A stretch of DNA of 64,000 bases from Candidatus Aegiribacteria sp. MLS_C (GCA_002030045.1 LQBI01000024.1:1-64000), one strand, 5' to 3'; positions 35,102-38,546 are shown, counted from the first letter of the stretch. The notes: generated by a model from the letters alone, not told the origin. Numbers and translations are program-made.

Positions 35102-35130
35102 TTGTTTCGCACATCCGCCTGGCGTATAAT
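35102..35130 (+). promoter_or_regulatory. Sigma70 promoter of the gatED operon
   Basis: TTGTTT (35102-35107) and a perfect TATAAT (35125-35130) are 17 bases apart. Transcription would begin near 35137, giving a leader of about 90 bases to gatE. Confidence 0.75.
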
Positions 35131-35223
35131 TGAGCGCCGTTCGCGGTTCGTTCCCCCGTATCCTGGGCCCGAGGGATTTCCCTAGTCCAGTACCGGCCAA
35201 TTCCGAAAGGAGCCCGTTCCATA

Positions 35224-37155
35224 GTGATCAGGAGCATGGAGGAGACCTCTCCCGAGGATTACAGAGATATCGGTCTGAAAAGCGGACTGGAGATCCATCA
35301 GCAGCTGGACACCGAAAGGAAGCTGTTCTGCCGGTGTCCCGTACTCCCGTACACGGACAGCTTCGATGCGCAGGTTCTCAGGCACATGAGGCCGACCCTT
35401 TCTGAGCTGGGCGAGTACGACGGTACGGCCCTGATGGAGTTTAAGACCAGAAAGGACATCGTCTATCAGATAAACAAGAACACGATATGCACCTACGAGA
35501 TAGACGACACTCCTCCCTTCGAACTCAACAGGCAGGCGCTGGAAATCGGCCTCGAGATTACTATGCTTCTCAACTGCAAGTTGGTAAGCGAGATACATGT
35601 CCAGAGGAAGCAGTACCTCGATGGATCGATTCCAGCCGGTTTCCAGAGGACCACGATACTCGGGGTCGACGGCTGGGTCCCCTTCCGCGGCAGGAGGATC
35701 GACATAGTCCAGCTGGGACTGGAGGAGGATGCCTGCAGGGAGGTAAGCGACATGGCCCACAGGCGGGTATACCTGACGGACAGACTGGGCATACCCCTCA
35801 TAGAGACGGTGACCGCACCGCAGATGCGGACCCCGGAGGAGGTGGCCGCCGTTGCCAGGGTCCTCAGCAGACTTGCCAGGTCGTCGGGAAAGGTCAGAAG
35901 GGGGATCGGTGCGGCCAGGCAGGATGTCAACGTGTCCGTAAACGGCGGCATGAGGGTGGAGATAAAGGGTGTCGCAAGGATACCCGAGATACCTCTGCTT
36001 GTCCACAACGAAGCATTCAGACAGGTTTCGCTGCTTGAGATACGCGAGGAGCTGCTGCGCAGGGGCATTCGGGCGGGAGGTCTGTCCAATGCGGTTCATG
36101 ACGTTTCTTCCGTACTTCGGGGGACTGCCTACGGTCCGGCAGCCGAAGCGTTGCAGCTTGGTCTAGGCGTTACGGCGGTACTTCTCAGGGGCTTCGCGGG
36201 AATACTCTCCACTCCGACCCAGCCGGGCCGGACCTTTGCCGACGAGATATCCGACAGGGTTAGGGTCATCGCATGCCTGGACCGTCTTCCGAACATCCTG
36301 CACGACGGTTTTCAGGGCGAGAGCCTGTCGGCATCCGAATGGGACAGGCTGAGAGGGCACGCCGGGGCGGGTCCGAAGGACGCGCTGGTGGTCGTATGGG
36401 GCGGTGAGGATGACCTGAGGACCGCAGTCAGCGAGATAGCGATACGTGCAGGTGAAGCGCTCGAGGGAGTCGTCAACGAGACCAGACAGTCCTTTTCCGA
36501 CGGCACCAACGGTTTTGAGAGGATACTGCCCGGACCGAACAGGATGTACCCCGACACCGACCTGGCTCCCATGGCTATAGGTCACGATCTCATCGAGAGA
36601 GTGCGCTCTTCCCTGCCGGAGAGACCCTGGGAGAGAGAGGAAAGGTACGTGACGGCGGGGGTTCCCGGGGAATCCGCACGACAGATGAGCCTCTCCCCCT
36701 TAAGGCACGAGTACGACCGCTCGCTGCAGGAGTCATGCTACGGACCCGCTGAACTCATGCACTTCTTCCTGAGCACACTGAACCACATACTGGACGAGGC
36801 CGGGCTGGAGGAGATACCCGATGAGGACCTTGTCCAGGTCCTCGCCCTGTCCGGAGAGGCGGGACTTCCCATCGAGGGTGCAGAGGCGGTCCTGCGCAGG
36901 CTGTTGAACGAAGGCGGCACCATACGTGAAACAGTCGCCCGAACCGAGGTGCCGGGAAGGCAGACGGTGAAGACCGCGGTCCGGAAGGCGATGGAGACCC
37001 TGAGTACCTGGAGCATGGATCAGGAACGGGTGGAACGATACCTGACCGGGAGGGTCAGGCGGGACCTCGAAGGACTGCCCGGAGGAGCCGAGGTGCTCAC
37101 CGTGGTGAGGGAAGAACTGAAGTATGCCGCCCCGAGGAGTACGGAAGGTGGGTGA
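35224..37155 (+). CDS. gatE: Glu-tRNA(Gln) amidotransferase subunit E (archaeal type)
   Basis: A 643-residue kinase/amidotransferase subunit that activates Glu on tRNA(Gln) and amidates it with ammonia supplied by GatD. The N-terminal cradle starts GLKSGLEIHQQLDT, the GatB/GatE family signature, with the conserved FCRCP soon after. GatE, not GatB, is indicated by the AspRS-like GAD insertion (about residues 320-440, starting GFAGILSTPTQPGRTFADE) and by the length. The C-terminal helical and tail domains follow (GPAELMHFFLSTLNHI onward). GTG at 35224 has AAGGAG 11 bases upstream; ATG at 35236 is possible. It overlaps gatD by 4 bases. GatDE is regarded as an archaeal system, so it is unusual here. 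Confidence 0.95.
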   Translation: MIRSMEETSPEDYRDIGLKSGLEIHQQLDTERKLFCRCPVLPYTDSFDAQVLRHMRPTLSELGEYDGTALMEFKTRKDIVYQINKNTICTYEIDDTPPFELNRQALEIGLEITMLLNCKLVSEIHVQRKQYLDGSIPAGFQRTTILGVDGWVPFRGRRIDIVQLGLEEDACREVSDMAHRRVYLTDRLGIPLIETVTAPQMRTPEEVAAVARVLSRLARSSGKVRRGIGAARQDVNVSVNGGMRVEIKGVARIPEIPLLVHNEAFRQVSLLEIREELLRRGIRAGGLSNAVHDVSSVLRGTAYGPAAEALQLGLGVTAVLLRGFAGILSTPTQPGRTFADEISDRVRVIACLDRLPNILHDGFQGESLSASEWDRLRGHAGAGPKDALVVVWGGEDDLRTAVSEIAIRAGEALEGVVNETRQSFSDGTNGFERILPGPNRMYPDTDLAPMAIGHDLIERVRSSLPERPWEREERYVTAGVPGESARQMSLSPLRHEYDRSLQESCYGPAELMHFFLSTLNHILDEAGLEEIPDEDLVQVLALSGEAGLPIEGAEAVLRRLLNEGGTIRETVARTEVPGRQTVKTAVRKAMETLSTWSMDQERVERYLTGRVRRDLEGLPGGAEVLTVVREELKYAAPRSTEGG

Positions 37156-38546
37156 TCGCCCTGTATGAGGATAGGTTCAAGGGTTACCGCGGGAGGAGCC
37201 TTGAATGCCTGCGGAAGTTCGATGTCGGCGTCTGGTCGGATGTGGAGGTCAGATCCACCGGTGGAGATTTCAGGGGAGTGGTTCTGCCCAGGTCGGAGAC
37301 AGCCGACGATGCTCATATAGTACTGAAGATTCACAACGGGTACAATGTAGGCATAGAGGTGGACACCATCGAGTCAATGATCGAGAGGGGGAGGATCGAG
37401 GCCCACTACAAGATACCGGAGAAGGAATTCCCCTTCGATCCTGACAAGCCCGACGTGAAACTGTTCGGTACCGGAGGCACGATAGCCTCGAGACTGGACT
37501 ACAGGACGGGAGCCGTGATACCGGCGTTCTCGCCGGGGGAACTGTACGGATCGGTGCCCGAACTCGCGGACATCTGCAACCTGAAGACGGAAAAGCTGTA
37601 CGGGGTCTTCAGCGAGAACATGGGTCCCGAACAGTGGAAGGGGACCGCCGAGGCGATAGGCAGGGAGATCGAGAACGGAGTCGACGGGATCGTAATAGGG
37701 CACGGCACCGATACGATGCACCACACCGCAGCGGTACTCTCCTTCATGGTACAGGATTCTCCCGTCCCGATAGTAATGGTAGGCTCCCAGAGGTCAAGCG
37801 ACAGACCGTCCAGCGATGCGGCGCTGAATCTCATGAACGCCACGTACGCCGCCGCACGCAGCGACATAGCCGAGGTCATGGTCTGCATGTTCGGTCCCAC
37901 AAGCGACCAGTACGGACTTCTACACAGGGGCACCAGGGTAAGGAAGATGCATTCCTCATACAGGTCAACCTTCAGGACCATAGGGGATATCCCCCTGGCC
38001 ATGGTGACAAGGGACGGCATCAGGATCCTGAACGAGGACCACCGGAAACGGAGAGGGGACAGGAAGGTCCGGATTAACACAGCCTTCGACCCGAGGGTCT
38101 CCATTGTCTACTACTACCCGAACATGCAGCCGGACATAATCAACTCCCTGGTGGACAACGGATACAAGGGCATTGTGATAGCCGGTACAGGGCTGGGCCA
38201 CGTTAACAAGCCTCTGTATCCGGCCCTCAGGAGGGCCTGCGAGGAGGGGGTACACGTATACATGACCGTGCAGACCCTGTGGGGGTACGTGCAGATGTTC
38301 GTTTACGATACGGGCAGGGATATAATGGAACTTGGTGTCGTTCCTTCCGCCAACATGCTGCCCGAGGTGGCATACGTTAAACTCTGCTGGGCGCTGGGAC
38401 AGAGCCATGACAGGGACGAGGTCAGGAGGATAATGTGTACACCGATAGCCGGTGAGATAACCGAAAGGGAGCCCTATAACGGCTATATCATCCTTCAGGG
38501 AGGCATTCCCGAAGTGGAGGAGTTCCTGGGCAGGTACAACCGCTGA
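37152..38546 (+). CDS. gatD: Glu-tRNA(Gln) amidotransferase subunit D (asparaginase type)
   Basis: A 464-residue subunit that frees ammonia from Gln or Asn for GatE. An N-terminal beta domain of about 90 residues, the mark of GatD against plain L-asparaginase, precedes the type I asparaginase fold. Catalytic features: Thr110 in GTGGTIAS, Thr186-Asp187 in GHGTDT, and Lys265 in RKMHSSYRS, matching the T-T-D-K set. Start is GTG at 37152, overlapping the gatE stop (GTGA). The order gatE-gatD and the coupling suggest an intact complex. A plain asparaginase is unlikely because of the N-terminal domain and the neighbour. Confidence 0.95.
   Translation: MIALYEDRFKGYRGRSLECLRKFDVGVWSDVEVRSTGGDFRGVVLPRSETADDAHIVLKIHNGYNVGIEVDTIESMIERGRIEAHYKIPEKEFPFDPDKPDVKLFGTGGTIASRLDYRTGAVIPAFSPGELYGSVPELADICNLKTEKLYGVFSENMGPEQWKGTAEAIGREIENGVDGIVIGHGTDTMHHTAAVLSFMVQDSPVPIVMVGSQRSSDRPSSDAALNLMNATYAAARSDIAEVMVCMFGPTSDQYGLLHRGTRVRKMHSSYRSTFRTIGDIPLAMVTRDGIRILNEDHRKRRGDRKVRINTAFDPRVSIVYYYPNMQPDIINSLVDNGYKGIVIAGTGLGHVNKPLYPALRRACEEGVHVYMTVQTLWGYVQMFVYDTGRDIMELGVVPSANMLPEVAYVKLCWALGQSHDRDEVRRIMCTPIAGEITEREPYNGYIILQGGIPEVEEFLGRYNR

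Follow-up and report, generated by a model that had tools for sequence, protein, structure and literature searches.

We describe here a gatE-gatD gene pair from Candidatus Aegiribacteria sp. MLS_C, located in a 64,000-nucleotide stretch of DNA that is referred to as the window. The pair almost certainly encodes GatDE and, judged from sequence, very probably works as an amidotransferase, with the two subunits presumably forming a complex. The best explanation, which we hold with moderate confidence, is that the enzyme belongs to a bacterial GatDE subfamily that would mainly amidate Asp-tRNA(Asn), perhaps with Glu-tRNA(Gln) as a second substrate. Reviews call GatDE exclusively archaeal, and by the account of one of them the presence of GlnRS beside GatDE in this host is a combination that no archaeon has (PMC9499178). 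The portions of the literature that were accessible yielded no bacterial case and several statements that none exists. An earlier note on this DNA had seen in the pair a contradiction of the published archaeal-only view, and this has been borne out, since GatDE occurs in a bacterium and in a clade extending over a dozen or more phyla. NCBI models probably already name such bacterial genes, so the novelty is relative to the literature and not to the databases.

Within the window, gatE (35224..37155, plus strand) has a GTG start and encodes a transamidase/kinase subunit of 643 amino acids, and the adjacent, co-directional gatD (37161..38546, plus strand, most likely with a CTG start) encodes a glutaminase subunit resembling type I asparaginases. 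Both proteins exceed the cut-offs of NCBI equivalog models, GatE with 493 bits to NF003107 (cut-off 456) and 438 to TIGR00134 (cut-off 320), and GatD with 515 bits to NF003217 (cut-off 310) and 514 to TIGR02153 (cut-off 324), in agreement with the identity claimed in the earlier note. GatB models score the window GatE below their own cut-offs, and asparaginase models score GatD far lower than the GatD equivalogs do, which argues against a plain asparaginase. Type I bacterial asparaginases share the catalytic domain of GatD and its T-T-D-K set, whereas GatD has an N-terminal GatD domain and adjoins gatE. That domain had been reported together with intact T-T-D-K residues; PF18195 (GatD_N) was indeed detected at the N-terminus by Pfam search, and T110, T186, D187 and K265, numbered from GTG 37152 (the ORF caller's start), are invariant across 104 bacterial homologues. 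A second, distant asparaginase homologue is present in the host genome (G000:C2, 101 bits against the GatD model). Purifying selection acts on gatD strongly (pN 0.06-0.13 vs. pS 0.67-0.85) and is also seen in gatE (pN 0.21-0.27 vs. pS 0.63-0.79).

The solved structures closest to the window proteins are archaeal GatE and archaeal GatD (1zq1, 2d6f), with which the pair agrees in its two subunits, the order of domains, the catalytic residues and the predicted fold, and window GatE is 34-37% identical to the solved chains, including 1zq1_C and 2d6f_C. The window protein retains the cradle residues E23, H25, K129, E167, E168, D169, E194, R232, D234 and N236, which by alignment bacterial and archaeal GatE have in common with GatB. 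An AlphaFold2 model of GatE (mean pLDDT 87.7, built from a 30-sequence alignment) found its top fit in 1zq1_C by Foldseek (TM 0.82 by target length), with 1zq1_C and 2d6f ranked above every GatB chain and a weak resemblance to bacterial AspRS; this comparison of predicted folds speaks for a GatE with the usual architecture. The GAD insertion previously ascribed to gatE may be present. The region at the GAD position (approximately residues 290-411; 36091..36456, plus strand), whose bounds were estimated from the secondary structure of the AlphaFold2 model and from Foldseek, misses the Pfam GAD threshold, but the GatE model is best matched by archaeal GatE and weakly by bacterial AspRS. Bacterial AspRSs are carriers of GAD. 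Bacterial GatD departs from the archaeal subunit at many residues specific to its clade and in having a C-terminal extension, and the catalytic loop of bacterial GatE differs in having Y131, I136 and P137.

The two genes had been described as coupled by a 4-base overlap, which is probably incorrect. In the majority of close relatives, an in-frame TGA stands where the window has GTG 37152 (AGGAGGTGA-TC-NNN-CTG), and this closing TGA falls within a ribosome-binding site, AGGAGGTGATC, that has the same spacing as the gatD ribosome-binding site of the window. The next possible gatD start in relatives lies at equal spacing and is mostly CTG, with TTG, GTG or ATG in some, and the window codon aligned to it is CTG 37161, 5 nt past the gatE stop. 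Because the relatives close the frame of GTG 37152 with TGA, gatD would most likely start at CTG 37161. Its extended ribosome-binding site, AAGGTGGGTGATC (37145..37157, plus strand), recognized from the sequence and the relatives, overlaps the end of gatE; that of gatE itself is GAAAGGAG (35205..35212, plus strand). A non-standard CTG start of gatD conserved behind a strong ribosome-binding site was observed in many Fermentibacterota and Krumholzibacteria records (L042, L070, L071, L131-L134 and L136; window 37145-37163). The sigma70 promoter proposed upstream of gatE is a possible one, TTGTTT-17-TATAAT (35102..35130, plus strand), that was read by eye: its -10 element is perfect (TATAAT, 35125-35130), but its -35 element is poor (TTGTTT, 35102-35107) and a scan for consensus promoters did not report it.

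The host, a candidate member of the Fermentibacterota, has a 2.98-Mb genome (97.65% complete, 0.07% contaminated), and the named relatives are Candidatus Fermentibacteria and Aegiribacteria MAGs. As stated beforehand, the genes around gatED are bacterial in type: a histidine kinase and a sigma-54 regulator, which lie upstream in the window instead of glnA, together with hpf, hprK and HPr. The order hpf, hprK, ptsI downstream of gatED is kept in approximately 10 related loci, and GC3 of gatE (0.73) and gatD (0.75) equals that of the neighbours (0.71-0.76). Together, these observations exclude a chimeric contig.

When GTDB species were scanned, each represented by one genome, at least 562 stretches were found to encode relatives. 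The best 80 of these are 73-85% identical to the window GatD, have gatE directly upstream of gatD in nearly all cases and, according to MAG record titles, span a dozen or more bacterial phyla: Fermentibacteria, Krumholzibacteria, Latescibacteria, Zixibacteria, KSB1, Ignavibacteria/Kapabacteria, Bacteroidota, Calditrichota, Aminicenantes, Acidobacteria, Neomarinimicrobiota, Planctomycetota and Cloacimonetes, plus a single title that is archaeal. Individual MAGs may have been misbinned, but a spread drawn from so many independent studies is unlikely to result from errors in binning. When GatB serves as the root of the GatE tree, the bacterial sequences fall into a single clade (97/89) that faces the archaeal sequences (99/96), and GatE splits from GatB with full support and does not group with it. 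The GatD tree agrees, with a bacterial clade apart from the archaeal sequences, and the bacterial GatDE clade stands on a long stem that parts it from the archaeal enzymes. Trees holding three or four archaeal rows (two PDB entries, one haloarchaeal plasmid GatE and a possibly archaeal-type pair from G047) are compatible with both ancient transfer and vertical descent. The G047 pair, a gatD-gatE pair on a 7.5-kb contig of a bacterial bin (G047:C207, L039), groups with archaeal GatDE and reflects either an independent transfer or contamination by a contig from an archaeon. Conversely, a MAG labelled as a Thermoplasmatota archaeon (L207) encodes, on opposite strands, a GatD and a GatE that belong to the bacterial clade, by transfer or misbinning. 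No bacterial GatDE was found among the plasmids searched, so plasmid carriage was discarded.

The idea that the genes arrived recently from an archaeon, or that the assembly includes an archaeal contig, has nothing in its favor other than the family name and the distribution given in the literature, and it is already contradicted by synteny conserved within the genus, matching GC3, contamination of 0.07% and a position among bacterial sequences from a dozen or more phyla, which stand away from the archaeal rows. It is thus hardly credible, and the lone transfer from archaea suggested in the earlier note gives way to membership in this clade.

Most genomes of the host's order, in all three families, carry GatE and GatD, the exceptions being mainly incomplete drafts. 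One member of the host's family (G020, 95% complete) gave no GatE or GatD match; it seems to have lost both genes, and the system would accordingly be dispensable in this order. In f3, g4 and g5 of the order, gatE (L046-L048, L050-L055) and gatD (L056-L063) are at separate loci, and GatE is ~60-70 residues shorter at the C-terminus; the missing stretch is what we take to be the site of the tail domain that contacts tRNA. Elsewhere, glnA (glutamine synthetase) is found directly upstream of gatE-gatD (L038, L134, L135, L139 and L197), in loci of Krumholzibacteriota, UBP1, Latescibacteria and Phycisphaerae and in one genome of Fermentibacterota (G016), and this neighbourhood fits an enzyme that uses glutamine as ammonia donor. 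The glnA neighbours in several phyla, the unlinked genes and shorter GatE of f3, g4 and g5, and the direct routes for both tRNAs in the host genome could also be explained if the pair acted outside translation, with GatD as a glutaminase or asparaginase and GatE employed elsewhere, e.g., in nitrogen metabolism. Such a role is improbable, since no cradle residue and no member of the GatD catalytic set has been lost, gatE adjoins gatD at nearly all loci of other phyla, and some genomes without GlnRS or AsnRS have GatE as their only amidotransferase.

The earlier note had assigned the pair to the archaeal route to Gln-tRNA(Gln), and this is not sustained for the host. A full-length GlnRS is encoded (750 bits to TIGR00440, cut-off 426; 743 bits to E. 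coli GlnRS), as in nearly all genomes of the order with good coverage, so the lack of GlnRS that belongs to that pathway is not seen. The one GluRS is bacterial and has Arg at the position of T. thermophilus R358. Arg358 is a mark of discriminating GluRS, and the sole host enzyme is therefore probably of the discriminating type rather than a non-discriminating GltX. Both tRNA-Gln genes have U1-A72, the bacterial pattern, which goes against the idea of an archaeal-like tRNA-Gln; tRNA-Asn(GTT) has G1-C72. A1-U72 in tRNA-Gln is a feature of the archaeal indirect pathway to Gln-tRNA(Gln), and U1-A72 is required by bacterial GatCAB. The host thus differs from archaeal GatDE systems in having GlnRS and a U1-A72 tRNA-Gln. 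A selenocysteine tRNA gene (TCA) is also present in its genome (G000:C32:210587-210678, L120). GatCAB, judged by GatA and GatB, is absent: no amidase-family protein, and hence no GatA, was found in the host genome, and the sole GatB_N match is the window GatE. Glutamine synthetase is encoded as well, and tRNA-dependent synthesis as the sole source of glutamine was rejected on that basis.

A sample of 385 bacterial genomes contained about 18 outside the host's order with a GatE-type gene and without GatB, a call that rests on the score range of a shared Pfam domain, with the sequence inspected for G044 only; three genomes with hits in the GatE range and neither AsnRS nor GlnRS (G098, G220 and G306) were left out as probable GatB fragments. 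Eight of the 18 GatE-only genomes lack AsnRS or GlnRS, vs. 6 of the 38 devoid of both GatB and GatE (Fisher p = 0.026), a weak test given incomplete drafts, related genomes and a cut-off set after the tables were seen. The comparison speaks for either substrate, in that GlnRS is missing from five of the GatE-only genomes and AsnRS from three (G067, G118 and G254), and draft gaps or GatB fragments could lie behind some of these absences. False absences do occur, as indicated by a 100% complete genome (G161) that has GlnRS but was unmatched for AsnRS, GatB and GatE.

These data bear on the classical specificity, under which bacterial GatDE would amidate Glu-tRNA(Gln) alone, either as an alternative to GlnRS or to clear mischarged tRNA, its substrate being the little Glu-tRNA(Gln) that GluRS produces. 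Four genomes (G072, G340, G186 and G289) appear to have GatE and AsnRS without GlnRS or GatB, which favors this reading, and it also draws on U1-A72 in tRNA-Gln vs. G1-C72 in tRNA-Asn and on the archaeal precedent (PMC9499178). Nevertheless, most GatE-only genomes contain GlnRS, and with a complete GlnRS and a GluRS bearing the discriminating Arg, little Glu-tRNA(Gln) is expected in the host. We therefore consider it unlikely that Glu-tRNA(Gln) is the only substrate.

Asp-tRNA(Asn), in contrast, is the misacylated tRNA most expected in the host, since its only AspRS appears, by model and motif, to be of the non-discriminating type. This AspRS scores 382 bits to TIGR00458 aspS_nondisc (cut-off 368), a model that may also take in discriminating archaeal enzymes; it passes NF003483 aspartate--tRNA(Asn) ligase, and its best solved match is the non-discriminating AspRS2 of T. 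thermophilus. AspRS specificity is marked by W26/K85 vs. H/P, and the host enzyme has Pro at the K85 position and Gln, neither Trp nor His, at the W26 position. To our knowledge, tRNA-Gln is the only substrate tRNA of archaeal GatDE. In Bdellovibrio, Thermus and Deinococcus, GatCAB serves tRNA-dependent asparagine synthesis beside GlnRS and AsnRS, and in Bdellovibrio, with the same synthetase set as our host, it makes asparagine (PMC4206432). The host resembles these bacteria in having GlnRS, AsnRS, a non-discriminating-type AspRS and one amidotransferase, but its amidotransferase is GatDE, its tRNA-Asn is without U1-A72, and it has an AsnB-type asparagine synthase. The AspRS models, Pro at the K85 position, the GluRS Arg and the Bdellovibrio precedent argue for Asp-tRNA(Asn), whereas the acceptor stems, which would favor tRNA-Gln, and Gln at the W26 position of AspRS argue against it. 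On balance, the case for Asp-tRNA(Asn) among the main substrates is evenly poised, and we propose only tentatively that a non-discriminating AspRS is the partner of bacterial GatDE, which would be an amidotransferase for Asp-tRNA(Asn) or one of dual specificity. Y131 and P137 in the catalytic loop are as in GatB and unlike archaeal GatE, a likeness that would suit a widened specificity but proves nothing.

In the mechanism we envisage, the lone non-discriminating-type AspRS would supply Asp-tRNA(Asn), GatD would free ammonia from glutamine, and GatE would phosphorylate the side-chain carboxylate of the misloaded amino acid and then swap that phosphate for the GatD-derived ammonia. The main job of GatDE would most likely be to amidate Asp-tRNA(Asn), correcting the mischarged tRNA and making asparagine on it; Glu-tRNA(Gln) may be a second substrate. 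GatDE would thus add an indirect route to the direct ones of GlnRS and AsnRS. The host genome encodes AsnRS and an AsnB-type asparagine synthase (TIGR01536, 352 bits, cut-off 267), and neither product of the GatDE route should therefore be needed. Asn_synthase matches are weak or missing in six well-covered relatives (G004, G005, G017, G024, G037 and G039), which may also speak for Asp-tRNA(Asn) as a substrate. In genera g4/g5, the AsnB-type synthase lies near glnS, as in G022 (G022:C63, L212), where a gene weakly like glutamate-cysteine ligase sits between the two, and by coordinates it also adjoins glnS in G021, G025, G026, G028, G030, G032 and G033.

We know of no organism in which a tRNA-dependent asparagine pathway built on GatDE has been described. 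The clade includes records titled Caldithrix abyssi, Ignavibacterium and Melioribacteraceae, so that cultured relatives may permit bench work. The main puzzle, missed in the earlier note, is why GatDE is kept beside GlnRS and AsnRS, direct enzymes that should make it unnecessary. If our explanation is true, a GatDE-based asparagine pathway would be widespread in uncultured bacterial phyla, and the bacterial clade bears on whether GatDE was present in the last universal common ancestor or the bacterial stem.
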